Shown here: positions 219-63,216 of the stretch, piece by piece | How positions within the stretch are numbered: the first letter of the stretch is position 1 | Layout of the letters: the number at the start of each line of letters is the position of its first letter | Origin: Phycisphaerales bacterium | Lineage (GTDB): Bacteria; Planctomycetota; Phycisphaerae; Phycisphaerales; UBA1924 | Length of the DNA: 64,000 bases | Direction of reading: 5' to 3' | Assembly (NCBI GenBank): GCA_027083355.1 | Contig: JALWOY010000041.1 | Coordinates: forward strand, 1-64,000 | The notes under the pieces: model-generated | Databases searched by the model: none | What the model was told of the DNA's origin: nothing | Seen by the model: only the letters and a program-made list of their open reading frames with translations | Program-made: the position numbers and the translations under genes

Positions 219-687
219 ACTCCGGCTCGCCGCCGGACATGTCGTACACCCACGGCGTGATGGCACGGTCGAAATCGAGCACCTCGCCGGCGTTGAAGAA
301 AAGGCCCAGCTCACGCTCGGCGGCCTCGGGGCTGTCGGACCCGTGGATCAGGTTGAACGAGTTGGACACGCCGAAATCGCCGCGGATCGTCCCCGCGTCG
401 GCCTTGGACCCGAACGTCGCGCCCATCATCGACCGGCAGATGGCGATCGCCCCGACGCCCCGCACGGCCATGACGCAGACGGGGCTGGACGTCATAAACC
501 GGACAAGCCCGTCATAGAACGGCTTGCCCTGGTGGTCCTTGTAGTGCGTCGCCGCCAGTTCGGGGGTGATCTGCATCATCTTCATACCGACGATGTGCAG
601 GCCCTTGTCCTCGAAACGGGTGATGATCTTGCCCATCAGGCCGCGCTGCACGGCATCAGGTTTGAGGATGATCAGCGTGGTTTCCAT
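217..687 (-). CDS. ndk: Nucleoside diphosphate kinase
   Basis: This 156-residue protein has the normal length for NDK, which moves the gamma phosphate from ATP to other nucleoside diphosphates through a phosphohistidine. The N-terminal KPDAVQRG motif is at residues 9-16. The catalytic histidine is H115 in NLIHGSDS, followed by the conserved SPEAAERE stretch. The ATG at 687 is preferred over upstream in-frame starts because the minus strand has a GGAG site (CGGAGAAAAGAAC) just before it, and because METTLIILKPDA matches family starts. It runs convergently to the truncated gene at the left edge. Its stop codon lies at the border of an interspersed repeat. Confidence 0.97.
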   Translation of the reverse strand: METTLIILKPDAVQRGLMGKIITRFEDKGLHIVGMKMMQITPELAATHYKDHQGKPFYDGLVRFMTSSPVCVMAVRGVGAIAICRSMMGATFGSKADAGTIRGDFGVSNSFNLIHGSDSPEAAERELGLFFNAGEVLDFDRAITPWVYDMSGGEPE

Positions 688-56226: not shown

Positions 56227-56441
56227 GGCCAGAGCGTATCGCCCGTGCGGGGGGGAATCCCGCCGAGGGCCGCGGACGTGCGCCACCGGCACGCCCGGCA
56301 CAGACCGACGCGCGGCGACGTGTGATAAATGCTTCTCGCAACAGAGGTTCGAGACTCTGTGCGCCTTCGTCGATAGGTACGAACAAGGCCGGGATGTCGT
56401 GTCTGACCCGGCCCACGCACAGCCCATATGGAGTCCACCCC

Positions 56442-59183
56442 GTGAACCGCACCATCGAATCCATCGCGTCTCGTCCTGTCGTGGTCAGTTCTTTCGTCGT
56501 GTCGCTCGCCGCCCTGCTCGGCGGCTGCTCGGCGACGCATTCCGGCCATGCCACTGGTTCGTTCAGCACCGAGGGTCTGGCGAGCCTCTCCGAGCAGGAG
56601 ATCAAGCCCGAGTCCACGGTCGGGACGTACACCGCCGAGACGTACCGCGCCGAGGCCGAGCAGGTGCACCTGCCGGATCAGTGGCTGAGCGAGGCGGAAT
56701 GGGGGACGGCGTCCGTGGAGGCGAGGCGTGCGAGCGCCGAGGCGGCGAAACTCCGCGCCGCGGCGGGGACACAGGAAGCCAACGCCGCCGCCGATGCCGC
56801 CCTTGCCGAGTCCTACGGGCAAACCCAGGCGCAGCTGGCACACTCGCGGTTGATGTCCGACGTGTACGAGGCCCGGATCGATGAGCAACGAGGGCAGATC
56901 GAGGCCCGCGCCCACGCCTACGAGGCCGAGGCGAAGCGTCGCGAGGCTTTCCTGACGTCCTCGATCGCGGAGTGGCAGGCGGAGGTCGAGCGGATGCGGT
57001 CGGCCGCCGAGGCGCAGTGGAACGAAGCCGTCGCCAAGCACGACAAGCTTCTGGCCGAGCGTGAGGCCGTTCAGCAGCGCGGGCAGGCGACGATCGACAA
57101 GATGGTGCAGGTCGCGGAGCTGACGGCCCGTCGGGCGGCGGACAAGGTCGCCGCGTTGCGGACCGAAGCGCAGAGCACGACCGAATCCACCGAGGCGCAG
57201 GTCGCCGAGCTGAACGCCCGGATCCAGTCCGTGCGTGAGCAGACGGCGGCGCGGGTCGCCGCGTTGCGGCAGCAGGCCGAATCGTTGCGTGAATCGACGG
57301 CCGCCACGGTGGCGGACCTGAACGCGGAGGCCGAGGCGCTCGACACGCAGGACGTTCAGGGGGAATACTCGGTGGCGTTGCAGGAAGCGCAGACAGCGTT
57401 CGAGGCGGCGATCACCGAGGCGAGCAACCTTCGATCGCAGGCGGTGGAGAAGCGGATCAACGCGACGGCGGAGATGGATCGCCGGATGGCCGAGCTCGAA
57501 CAGAGCAAGAAGAACACGAAAGCCGCCTACGACGAGGCGATGGCGCACATCGACTCGACGTTCAAGGACGTGATGTCGCGCATCGCCGTTGCGCGGGCCG
57601 AGGCGGACAAGGTCGAGAAATCGGCAAGAGCGGCGTTCATCAAGGCGGAGACGGACGCCCGCGTCAAGGCCGCGCTCGCCCGGAGCGAGCACCAGCGTCG
57701 GCTCGCCGACGACGAGTTCGAGAAGGTGAAGGCGGCCGCGGAAGCCGAGGCGGCGGCGTTGCAGGCCAAGCTGTACCGGCAGATCGCCAAGGAACTCAAG
57801 GCGGGCAAGATCGCGTTGGACCCGAAGGCGGAAGCGAACCCGAACACCCCGACCGCGGACGCTGAGGCCCCGAGATTCACCGAGGCTTCGGAGAAGGCGC
57901 CCGTGGTCGAGCCGGACCGGATTGCACAGTTCAAGACGGGCCTTGCCGAGGCGACGCGTCTGCGTGTGCGTGCGGACGCCGACGAGGCCGCCGCCAACGC
58001 CCAGCGTGACGCCGAGACGGGCCATTTCAACGCGTGGCTCGCGCAGGCGGAGGCGAACCACAACGCGTGGCGTGCGCGGATCGACGCGTTCGGCAAGCAG
58101 TCCGACGCGGAGATCGCCGCGCTGCTCTCGAAGGCCGAGAGCGTTGTCGTGGCGGCCGAGGCGGCGCGTGAGAAGGCGTTCGTGCTGGCCGAGAGCGACA
58201 AGCAGAGCACGATGGCGCGGATCGCGACGCTGCACGCCAAGGCGCAGGCGACCGAGAAGAAGAACCTCGCCCGCGTCGAGCAGCTGCTCGCCCAGGCCGA
58301 CACGACGGCCCGCAACGGCGACAGCGAGGTGAGCACGCTGACGATCCGACGTGACTCGACGCTGCGTCGCGGGAAGGCCCGCAGCCGCGAGCTGCTTGTT
58401 CAGGCGGATTCGCTCGAGCAGAGCCAGGCCGCGGTGGTGGCGAGGATGCACAGCGAGATCGACTCGGCGAGGAAGATCCTTTCGAGCGAGCTGGCGCGTC
58501 TGGACCAGAGCGCCGAGACGTTCTACGCCGTCGCCAAGGCCGACTTCGAAGAGCAGAAGGTGTTGGCCGACACGTTCGAGCGGATCAGCGTCGCCAACGC
58601 GACCGAGCTGGCCGCGGCGCATGTGAGCGCCCGCAAGCAGGCGCAGGCGGACGTCGAATATCTGCGTCGCATCGCCGACGCGAACGAGATCAGCGCCGGC
58701 GCGGACGTCGACCGCATGGTGGCCGACGCGACCGCCCAGCAGTCGCTCTTCGAGGCCGCCGATCTGGCCGACCGCGCGCGGATCGAGTCGCGGCACAAGA
58801 TCGCGCTGGCGTCGGCCGCCGAGCAACGGGCCATCGCCGACGCCCGCGAACAGGTCGTCCGCTCGACGTTCGACTCGCGGATCAACGCCACGATCGCCTC
58901 ACGGGATCGTGCCTACGCGGACCAGTACCTGGCGAACTTCCGCGACGACACCCGCTCGCGGCAGGCCCTCGCCGACGCGGCCCGGTACGAGGAACTCGCC
59001 AACGCCGCGCTCGACCGGCTGAACGCCGCCGCCCGCTCGTTCGGCCGGACGGCGGACGAGAACTGGGACGCCCGGTTGGCCATCCCCACCGGCTTCTCGC
59101 AGCCCGCCGACACCGACGCGCTGTACCGCGAGGCGATCCAGAAGCTCAACGACGGGGTCTTCGCCAACGTCGATGTCGATTGA
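56442..59183 (+). CDS. Giant coiled-coil lipoprotein
   Basis: An unrecognised 913-residue protein. The GTG at 56442 starts a lipoprotein signal: basic N-terminus, hydrophobic SRPVVVSSFVVSLAALLGGC, and a lipobox cysteine at 29. The rest is almost entirely Ala/Glu/Arg/Gln-rich helix with few prolines, consistent with a very long coiled coil. The exceptions are a break at about residues 465-500 (NPNTPTADAEAPRF) and a tail ending FANVDVD. Similar helical units recur, for example ARVAALRQQAESLRESTAAT and KVAALRTEAQSTTESTEA. It is probably envelope-anchored and elongated. It is monocistronic with a strong terminator. Spectrin- or TolA-like architecture is an analogy only. Confidence 0.85.
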   Translation: MNRTIESIASRPVVVSSFVVSLAALLGGCSATHSGHATGSFSTEGLASLSEQEIKPESTVGTYTAETYRAEAEQVHLPDQWLSEAEWGTASVEARRASAEAAKLRAAAGTQEANAAADAALAESYGQTQAQLAHSRLMSDVYEARIDEQRGQIEARAHAYEAEAKRREAFLTSSIAEWQAEVERMRSAAEAQWNEAVAKHDKLLAEREAVQQRGQATIDKMVQVAELTARRAADKVAALRTEAQSTTESTEAQVAELNARIQSVREQTAARVAALRQQAESLRESTAATVADLNAEAEALDTQDVQGEYSVALQEAQTAFEAAITEASNLRSQAVEKRINATAEMDRRMAELEQSKKNTKAAYDEAMAHIDSTFKDVMSRIAVARAEADKVEKSARAAFIKAETDARVKAALARSEHQRRLADDEFEKVKAAAEAEAAALQAKLYRQIAKELKAGKIALDPKAEANPNTPTADAEAPRFTEASEKAPVVEPDRIAQFKTGLAEATRLRVRADADEAAANAQRDAETGHFNAWLAQAEANHNAWRARIDAFGKQSDAEIAALLSKAESVVVAAEAAREKAFVLAESDKQSTMARIATLHAKAQATEKKNLARVEQLLAQADTTARNGDSEVSTLTIRRDSTLRRGKARSRELLVQADSLEQSQAAVVARMHSEIDSARKILSSELARLDQSAETFYAVAKADFEEQKVLADTFERISVANATELAAAHVSARKQAQADVEYLRRIADANEISAGADVDRMVADATAQQSLFEAADLADRARIESRHKIALASAAEQRAIADAREQVVRSTFDSRINATIASRDRAYADQYLANFRDDTRSRQALADAARYEELANAALDRLNAAARSFGRTADENWDARLAIPTGFSQPADTDALYREAIQKLNDGVFANVDVD

Positions 59184-59224
59184 CGACGCGGGAATCCCCA
59201 CCAACACATCAGCAATCCGATGAG

Positions 59225-59249
59225 GCCCGGGCAACCGCCCGGGCTTTTT
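59225..59249 (+). terminator. Rho-independent terminator after the coiled-coil lipoprotein gene
   Basis: GCCCGGGC (59225-59232), loop AACC, GCCCGGGC (59237-59244), then five T residues. It sits between the convergent lipoprotein and permease genes. Confidence 0.93.
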
Positions 59250-59290
59250 CAATCCCCCGTTCAAGGAGGACCCGGGCCGAGTGGGATCGA

Positions 59291-60646: not shown

Positions 60647-61065
60647 GCGGTCAGTTCGTGGGCCGATCTTCGTGCCCGGTGGGCGGGTGTCTGGCCGGGT
60701 GTCTGGGGGGCCGGGCGGGGCGTATGGTAGCCGGCTGATTTCTTCGCCCGCGGGTGAACCGGGGTTCGGCGTCCCCGTAGAAAGATTCGGGATTCGGCCG
60801 ACCGGGGCGGCGTGAGTGCCGGTCGGCGTCCGCGTTGGCGCTGCAGGCCGATCGGCGTCGGGGTGGACATCCACCCCGGAGGCGTTGACAATACCGCTCG
60901 TGCCGCCCGGGGGGTTGCCGGTGGGCAACGCTCGGCGCGGGCCGGCCGGCGGAGCAGATCGGCCGCCGCGGCTTGGGGCAACGACGCCAGCGAGGAGCCC
61001 GGGGCACAGCACCCCGGCGGGCGCCAAGAAGGGTCCGCACACTGGATCGCACACCGAGGAGTCGG
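60647..61065. other. Intergenic region upstream of the SPFH pair
   Basis: 419 bases with no gene I can support, although GC-rich frames run through it. The hairpin GGGGTGG-ACAT-CCACCCC lies around 60864-60881 and a TTGACA-like hexamer just after it, but no -10 element follows at 17 bases. The promoter of the SPFH operon should lie here. Confidence 0.4.
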
Positions 61066-63216
61066 ATGAAGGGCGACGCACAGAGTTACGGGCGGGCCGC
61101 CGGGGCTTCAATCCTCGGCCTGGTCCTGCAGGTCCTCAGCACGATCACACTCTCGGTCTACGCCGCCTTCTCGGACGGCGACCACGCGGCGACGACGGCG
61201 GCGATGTACGCCGGCGTGGGCGTGCTGGTCTGGATCCCCCTGATCGTGTTGTTCGATTTGCACCGCCGGGAGCGGCTCGAATCCATCGAGCTGGATCGGC
61301 TCGAGGAAGAATCGGGCACCGGGGTCTTCGAACAGACCGACCAGCCCAGGGCGGCGCGCACGCTCGAGGCGATGCAGAAATACGCGATGCCGCTGCTGAG
61401 CCTGATCGTCGGCGGTCTGCTGTTGACGATCGGGTTCGTGCGGTTTTCGGGCCTCGGGGGGGAAACGGCGCTGGCCGACACGCAAACCCTGCATAAAGGC
61501 TGGGGCATCGCCATCGGTCTGGCGATCGCGATCGTCGGGTTCATCTTCGCCCGGTTCGTGTCGGGGATGGCAACGCAGCGGATCTGGGCCCCCCTCCGCG
61601 CGGGGGCGTCTTATGCCGTCGGCACCGCCATCGTCGGCTTGGCCATCGCGGTGATGCAGTTCATCGACAAGTCGGCGGGTCGTTCGATCGCGTTGGGCCC
61701 CGTGGCGCACGCGATCCCGATTTTCACGATCGTTCTGGGCGCCGAGACGCTGCTGAACGTCGTGCTGGACATCTACCGCCCCCGCAAGCCGGGCGAGGAC
61801 CCCCGGCCCGGGTTCGACTCCCGGCTGCTCGGGCTGCTGGCGGCCCCGGACAAGATCGCCGAGAACATCGGCGAAGCACTCAATTATCAGTTCGGCGTCG
61901 AGGTCTCCCGGACATGGTTCTACCTGCTGCTGCAGCGCTGGTGGCCCGGGCTGGTGGCCGTGGCGGTGCTGGTGACATGGGCGATGACGGCGCTGGTGGT
62001 GATCCAGCCGCACCAGAGGGCCCTGGTGCTGACATTCGGCAAGCCGACGAAGCCGCTGCTGAGTTTCGGCGATGTCGACGGTGTCGAGGTGGGGCCCGGG
62101 CTGCACATCGTCGCCCCCTGGCCGATGACCGAGGTGTATATCCCGGTCTCGAAAACACGGGACGAGAAGGGCCGGCCCGTCGAGATCCGCACGTCCACGG
62201 GCGTCCGGCTGATGAACCTCGGGACGAACCCGCCCAAGCGTGACACCGCGATCCTGTGGACGAATGAGCACACGCTGCGGGAAGTTTTCAACCTCGTCCA
62301 GCCCGCGCATCTCCGCGACGGCATCGGCGGCTCGACGGGCGAAGGCGGGGGCACGACGGACCTGTCGCTCGTAGCGATCGAGGCCCCGGTGCAGTACGTC
62401 ATCGACAACGTCCGCGAATACGACGAGTTCGCCCAGCCCGGGCACCGCGACAGGCTGCTGCGTCTGCTCGGCCAGCGGGAGCTGCTGCACTTGCTCGCCT
62501 CGACGAGCATCGACCGCGTGCTGGGCGCGGGGCGTGCGGAACTCGCCGAGGCGTTGCGTCGGCGGCTTGAAATCGCGTACAGCGCGGTCCCCGTCGGGGG
62601 GGGCGAGGTCCGCCCCGCGGGCGTCCGGCTGACGGATGTCGGCTCGGGCTTCGTGCACCCGCCGAAGGACGCGGCGCGGAGCTTCGAACGCGTCGTGCAG
62701 GCGGGGCAGGTGCTCGAGGCGAAGATCGAGGCCGCGACGGAGGACAAGATCCGCATCCTGACGGAGGTGGCGCCGCCGATCACCCGTGATGACGGCTCGG
62801 TCGTGACGACCGAGGACATCGTCGCACGGATCGACAACCTGACCGCGATGCTCGAAGCGGGTGCCCCTCGGAGCGAGATCGCATCGAAGGAACTCGCGAT
62901 CCAGCACCTGCTCGAAGAGGCGGGCGGCGAGGCGGGCGCGTCGCTGATCGCCGCCAGCGCCCAGCGGTGGGACACGCACATGGGCGAGCGCGGCAAGGCG
63001 GCGTTGTTCACCGGCCAGCTGGCGTCGTACGAGGCGGCCCCGTCGCTCTACAAGTCGAAGAAGTATTTCGACGCGCTGCTCGATATCATGGCCCCCTCGC
63101 GGGTCTACCTCACGAGCGAGCGTCTCAAAGACCTGAACATCGTTATCGAGTTGCAATCCCGCGACACGGGGATCGACCTGTTCAACCCCGAAGAGGGCAA
63201 CCCGAACGCGCCCTGA
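61066..63216 (+). CDS. SPFH/band 7 protein, HflK-like, with a polytopic N-terminal extension
   Basis: A 716-residue membrane protein. The C-terminal 400 residues are HflK-like: the helix WWPGLVAVAVLVTWAMTALV leads straight into the SPFH start IQPHQRALVLTFGKP. VGPGLHIVAPWPMTEVYIP, FERVVQAGQVLEAKIEAATE and the tail LTSERLKDLNIVIELQ follow. The first 285 residues are unusual for HflK and hold about six hydrophobic segments (for example ASILGLVLQVLSTITLSVYA and GIAIGLAIAIVGFIFARFVS). GAGGAG lies five bases before the ATG. It is paired with an HflC-like gene 17 bases downstream, so the two probably form a ring complex around a membrane protease such as FtsH. Confidence 0.9.
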   Translation: MKGDAQSYGRAAGASILGLVLQVLSTITLSVYAAFSDGDHAATTAAMYAGVGVLVWIPLIVLFDLHRRERLESIELDRLEEESGTGVFEQTDQPRAARTLEAMQKYAMPLLSLIVGGLLLTIGFVRFSGLGGETALADTQTLHKGWGIAIGLAIAIVGFIFARFVSGMATQRIWAPLRAGASYAVGTAIVGLAIAVMQFIDKSAGRSIALGPVAHAIPIFTIVLGAETLLNVVLDIYRPRKPGEDPRPGFDSRLLGLLAAPDKIAENIGEALNYQFGVEVSRTWFYLLLQRWWPGLVAVAVLVTWAMTALVVIQPHQRALVLTFGKPTKPLLSFGDVDGVEVGPGLHIVAPWPMTEVYIPVSKTRDEKGRPVEIRTSTGVRLMNLGTNPPKRDTAILWTNEHTLREVFNLVQPAHLRDGIGGSTGEGGGTTDLSLVAIEAPVQYVIDNVREYDEFAQPGHRDRLLRLLGQRELLHLLASTSIDRVLGAGRAELAEALRRRLEIAYSAVPVGGGEVRPAGVRLTDVGSGFVHPPKDAARSFERVVQAGQVLEAKIEAATEDKIRILTEVAPPITRDDGSVVTTEDIVARIDNLTAMLEAGAPRSEIASKELAIQHLLEEAGGEAGASLIAASAQRWDTHMGERGKAALFTGQLASYEAAPSLYKSKKYFDALLDIMAPSRVYLTSERLKDLNIVIELQSRDTGIDLFNPEEGNPNAP

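Follow-up and report, generated by a model that had tools for sequence, protein, structure and literature searches.

A class-restricted family of predicted lipid-anchored helical hairpins in Phycisphaerae, candidate periplasmic spacers or tethers

A 64,000-nucleotide stretch of DNA from a Phycisphaerales bacterium (the window; all positions are those of this stretch unless another locus is named) carries a gene for a lipoprotein of 913 residues that is helical almost throughout, and the locus raises the question of what shape such a protein takes and what it might do in a cell envelope. The source genome is 3.4 Mb and 92% complete. The periplasm of planctomycetes is unusually wide and variable. 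To our knowledge, what spaces or ties together the two planctomycete membranes is largely unknown, and a conserved, lipid-anchored hairpin with a fixed length of ~50 nm is a concrete candidate for a part in their spacing. The gene, its signals, and the parts of its product are as follows.

56430-56433, + strand: GGAG, the likely ribosome-binding site as judged from sequence, 8 nt upstream of the GTG
56442-59183, + strand: hairpin lipoprotein gene, 913 aa, with a GTG start, a stop codon at 59181-59183, and ~70 homologues
56442-56528, + strand: lipoprotein signal peptide (residues 1-28) and lipidated Cys29 (codon 56526-56528), the Cys being invariant
56529-56675, + strand: residues 30-78, a variable spacer running into a conserved LPxxWVSEA (77-85)
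56676-57800, + strand: ascending arm, residues 79-453 (paired part 79-405), with the 18-residue repeat
57093-57134, + strand: predicted helix break, residues 218-231, one side of a possible elbow; present in both models and conserved
57657-57911, + strand: tip, residues 406-490, consisting of a conserved helix (406-453) and a Pro-rich loop (454-490) of variable length
57912-59060, + strand: descending arm, residues 491-873, with the 18-residue repeat at 3.60 residues per turn
58437-58454, + strand: predicted helix break, residues 666-671 in the 61-row model, on the opposite side of the possible elbow
59061-59180, + strand: C-terminal tail, residues 874-913, containing a conserved NWDxRLA; many members end in a VxVPxD-like terminus
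59219-59250, + strand: intrinsic terminator hairpin and U run, -24.6 kcal/mol, z -5.4

An earlier note, made from the sequence alone, had described the product as lipid anchored and the gene as having its own strong terminator, and both descriptions hold. The terminator is real, and it is absent from the consensus-scan listing. A hydrophobic signal peptide leads into an LGGC lipobox ending at Cys29; this cysteine is invariant in the 34-row and 61-row alignments, and the lipobox is present in all of the distinct homologues covering the region (71/71), the one exception being a 5'-truncated copy. The residue at +2 in the homologues is S, A, G, E, T, N, or Q and never Asp, which would probably place the protein in the outer membrane by the enterobacterial Lol rule, a rule that may not hold in planctomycetes.

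The hairpin lipoprotein represents a real, undescribed, and class-restricted family with an unusual and well-supported architecture; its function is inferred. A homologue search among planctomycetes, as the earlier note had suggested, yields ~70 members, all in the class Phycisphaerae and patchy in occurrence, of which the closest named relatives among the genomes compared are in the Phycisphaerales MAGs UBA1926 and UBA7812 (67-68% identity over the hairpin lipoprotein). Homologues are present in 12 of 41 near relatives, 47 of 301 genomes of the order, 23 of 161 genomes from a second order of the class, and 28 of 298 genomes of the class, with a few of the weakest matches in these four tallies being false; for the window's own family the count is 42 of 163 genomes (about a quarter). 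Full-length matches in a sample of the phylum come from class members only. The sole match outside the class (in G750) is a flotillin-like protein and a false positive of composition, as is a weak match in genome G180 (L159) to an unrelated lipoprotein; this 874-codon open reading frame itself codes for a long helical lipoprotein with a VVAGC lipobox and a different C-terminal part. An apparently split and reordered homologue in G301 (L152) proved to be a scaffold-gap artefact, with 300 N in the stretch. Genome G361 carries the hairpin lipoprotein gene twice, as diverged copies in tandem (L153, 5814-8582 and 10222-13056). At the rnhB site, 10 genomes without a match were searched for hidden divergent copies and contain other genes instead, so the patchiness looks real there.

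No relative of the hairpin lipoprotein was found in Pfam (none at E<=1), NCBIfam, PHROG, or the PDB sequences. The family was not found described in the papers searched, where the 18-residue repeat and PrgA were likewise without a match, and structure searches (Foldseek/VIA) with the models returned only generic helical bundles and coiled coils. The open reading frame, the lipobox, the AlphaFold2 helices, and the lack of a family match thus agree with the earlier description of an almost wholly helical lipoprotein of 913 residues and unknown family. Neither of the findings named beforehand as contrary to that description, a globular domain or membership in a known cytosolic family, emerged from the Pfam and other searches or from the AlphaFold2 models.

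With 61 homologues, AlphaFold2 predicts helices at residues 79-217, 232-453, 491-665, and 672-873 and little besides (mean pLDDT 81.1). Residues 41-78 have a pLDDT of 86-94 in this deeper model, and a model built with 12 homologues is also nearly all helix (mean pLDDT 76.7). Proline is at ~0% in both arms and at 12-14% in residues 460-499. The recurring ALR.xAES units remarked upon from the sequence are an 18-residue repeat, which period analysis places far above shuffled sequences. The autocorrelation of hydrophobic positions peaks at 18, 36, and 54 residues, and the best period is 3.60 residues in the C-terminal arm (power 21-24 versus shuffle maxima of 10-13, with 23.9 versus 13.4 at this best period) and 3.615 residues in the N-terminal arm (power 16.0 versus a shuffle maximum of 11.7). 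The phase of the repeat is fixed, with Ala occupying ~80% of cells at position 16 mod 18 in the C-terminal arm. Eighteen residues in five turns is near the geometry of an unstrained alpha helix, so the strands would need little supercoil and could lie nearly straight.

Covariation between the arms indicates that these two long Ala/Glu-rich helical segments very probably pair in antiparallel orientation, with a constant register (i+j ~897) and a connecting tip that contains a Pro-rich loop (454-490). In 71 sequences, with correction for relatedness, covariation of arm 79-405 with 491-873 peaks at i+j=896-897 with a z of 10.6, whereas the best of 300 block permutations reaches 7.4 and the next-best register, i+j 932, reaches 6.3; parallel pairing of the arms attains only 3.8, which is not significant. 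The upper half of the hairpin (232-405 with 491-662) has its peak at i+j 896 (z 7.4, above all 200 permutations, p<0.005), the lower half is mixed between i+j 930 and 895, and two disjoint sets of 31 sequences have top registers of 896 (z 8.7) and 897 (z 4.1). The two arms also show mirror-image conservation about this axis (r=0.64, with the maximum at i+j=896), and the deletion in two homologues without columns 395-502 (L144 and L146) is centred on 448.5, equivalent to i+j 897. The correlation of mean hydrophobicity across the hairpin has no peak at 897 and is uninformative, both arms being periodic. The earlier note had envisaged either a single rod exceeding 100 nm or a helix that folds back on itself; the covariation, the mirrored conservation, and the symmetric tip deletion favor the second, and the single rod is disfavored.

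An intramolecular hairpin with its turn at 454-490 is the simplest reading of these patterns and most likely the correct one. Equal i+j covariation and a symmetric central deletion are also expected of an antiparallel homodimer, in which two extended chains of ~120 nm would lie head to tail with an anchor at each end, as a membrane staple or lattice, and the arm junction in variants that lack the tip is free of Pro and Gly. However, Pro-rich sequence between the arms is confined to the centre, which is loop-like, its length varying freely from 0 to 73 residues among the homologues, and lipid anchors ~120 nm apart are hard to fit in one envelope. The single-chain models also fold back, though such models favor compact shapes, and we regard the homodimer as very unlikely.

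The arms of the hairpin hardly vary in length. Of the 71 homologues, 62 have arms of exactly 374 (N-terminal, 79-452) and exactly 383 residues (C-terminal, 491-873), and these lengths hold down to 23% identity. Gap openings in the hairpin lipoprotein number 0.43 per 100 columns at 42% identity and fall nearly all outside the arms, compared with 0.8-1.6 per 100 columns at 49-61% identity in three enzymes encoded next door and 0.45 at 77% identity in a fourth adjoining enzyme. The family would offer a clean case, found in nature, of a long antiparallel coiled coil that is nearly straight, follows an 18-residue, five-turn repeat, and keeps a constant length over deep divergence, which is useful for coiled-coil design and for understanding how rod length gets selected. 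It might be supposed that sequence of this kind is low-complexity, Ala/Glu-rich filler whose homologues align through composition only, and compositional bias does yield weak false matches, as with the flotillin-like protein in G750 and the lipoprotein in G180. Filler would not be expected to align almost without gaps over about 800 columns at 23-43% identity, to keep an invariant lipobox Cys and further invariant residues (E392, F810, R813, and R821), or to have a phase-locked repeat and register-specific covariation. The collinear alignment, the invariant Cys, the repeat phase, and the covariation refute this explanation for the family, and we hold it to be almost certainly wrong.

At 0.149 nm per residue, the computed length of the paired arm 79-405 is ~49 nm and that of arm 491-873 is ~57 nm. 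Helix breaks are predicted at residues 218-231 and ~666-671 in both AlphaFold2 models, where they face each other across the hairpin in stretches that are well conserved, and by arithmetic the parts of the paired arm that flank them are ~21 and ~26 nm long. These breaks may form an elbow at which the rod could bend back to about half its length, a feature of the models that we put forward tentatively; the pairings of a folded elbow (A-B, C-D, A-C, and B-D) have no significant covariation. Nearer the membrane, residues 79-125 prefer a register of 927 and residues 130-170 one of about 933 (overall 924-935), not 897. We note that the near-membrane pairing, of 79-170 with about 755-850, is slipped by 30-36 residues, about two repeats. 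Aliasing by the repeat may account for part of this slip, and the base is no simple continuation of the hairpin.

A folded, elbowed bundle could instead lie along a membrane as a shaping scaffold, forming BAR-like arrays that curve invaginated planctomycete membranes. F-BAR and BAR domains do top the structure comparison of the models (Z 10-12), and planctomycete membranes are strongly invaginated (PMC5394234). Values of Z <13 are within chance for helical bundles, however, the folded-elbow contacts are without significant covariation, and no basic concave face has been demonstrated; such a scaffold is highly improbable. Among better-known proteins, the predicted hairpin is reminiscent in geometry of the arms of SMC, MukB, and Rad50, which are likewise ~50-nm antiparallel intramolecular coiled coils with a tip at the turn, and whose elbow part-way along has a predicted counterpart here. 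It is unlike them in having no ATPase head or hinge domain, in being secreted and lipidated, and in having no sequence relationship to them. Among the first Foldseek rows are MukB (7nyx, E 9e-4), condensin, PrgA, and the cohesin elbow, with scores that are within chance for helical bundles; the same is true of the scores with which the models align to the antiparallel hairpins of chemoreceptors (248..643) and of SMC arms (Smc5/6, 225..667).

Taken overall, we give a probability of roughly 0.5 to a hairpin rod of ~50 nm that is anchored in the outer membrane, has a conserved tip and possibly an elbow, and acts as a periplasmic spacer or tether. In this arrangement Cys29 would hold the secreted lipoprotein, probably in the outer membrane's inner leaflet; the base of the rod would contain the anchor together with the C-terminal tail, and the conserved helix and loop would lie at the far tip. 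It is plausible, though somewhat doubtful, that the rod extends into the periplasm with its tip on peptidoglycan or on an inner-membrane partner and so acts as a fixed-length spacer or tether of the outer membrane. The hairpin lipoprotein yielded no peptidoglycan-binding domain or transmembrane helix, and no partner gene was found for it. Envelope spacing in E. coli responds to the length of a lipoprotein rod, and a longer Lpp widens the periplasm (PMC8824477). In planctomycetes this compartment can become very large, and at crateriform complexes the inner membrane is kept near the wall, as described in studies of other classes (PMC5394234). A more specific version, in which the elbowed hairpin is a molecular ruler (~50 nm long in its straight form and about half as long in its folded form) that sets the distances of the outer membrane from a conserved inner partner and so helps to shape the unusually wide periplasm, is decidedly unlikely. 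Since the gene is present in only about a quarter of the genomes of its family, it answers to no general envelope requirement.

The main rival to the periplasmic spacer or tether is a surface stalk, in which the hairpin would project outside the outer membrane as a fibre for adhesion or spacing, with its tip ~50 nm away from the cell. Exposure at the surface is possible for lipoproteins, and the patchy distribution suits an accessory surface trait. PrgA is a long coiled-coil stalk anchored at its base, and the hairpin lipoprotein is similar to it in architecture; the Foldseek match to PrgA (6z9l) is a weak one (E 0.037). Planctomycetes are also known to carry surface fibres (PMC5394234). The tip-proximal segments 386-445 and 491-505 are nevertheless among the most conserved parts of the protein, unlike the typically variable tip of an adhesin, and no adhesin domain was found in Pfam searches or in the AlphaFold2 model. 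PrgA differs further in its Gram-positive cell-wall anchor and its adhesin domain, the hairpin model being without any globular domain. We consider the surface stalk unlikely. Natural tip-less variants occur in a divergent subgroup of the family (L144, L146, and L083), in which the tip is reduced or missing.

Other envelope proteins are closer in presumed role or presumed location than in build. Lpp (Braun's lipoprotein) and other envelope-spacing lipoproteins share with the hairpin lipoprotein a lipid-anchored helical rod of fixed length, the common role being presumed, but Lpp is a short single-helix trimer whose C-terminal Lys is attached to peptidoglycan, whereas the hairpin lipoprotein is 913 aa long with antiparallel arms, and its C-terminus is not Lys. 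The HlyD/MFP periplasmic adaptors are coiled-coil hairpins of the periplasm, as the hairpin lipoprotein is proposed to be, but their hairpin is far shorter and they have lipoyl and beta-barrel domains that are absent here (no Pfam match and no strands predicted).

The gene stands alone, with rnhB upstream and divergent and an ABC-2 permease gene downstream and convergent. The earlier note had named the ABC-2 permease and an HflK/HflC pair (Band_7) as neighbours, which is correct, and had placed the protein beside them as a possible envelope spacer, tether, or scaffold. That role is plausible, short of demonstration, whereas the association finds no support: neither the permease nor HflK/HflC lies beside a homologue at any other locus examined, including both same-genus loci. 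The upstream genes (rnhB, ribD, gcvT, and M42) are conserved in the near clade only, with rnhB transcribed the opposite way, and no common neighbour gene was found at the homologue loci of far relatives. The permease and HflK/HflC neighbours are thus not conserved and say nothing about function. The SPFH/flotillin proteins (HflK/HflC) resemble the hairpin lipoprotein in their Ala/Glu-rich helices and share its neighbourhood in the window, but the hairpin lipoprotein has no Band_7 domain, and that neighbourhood is not a conserved one. We note that the HflK-like protein encoded at 60973-63216 (+ strand) is 747 aa long with a Band_7 domain that starts only at residue 343; the ~340 residues at its beginning contain several hydrophobic stretches and resemble a multi-pass membrane domain that has been added.
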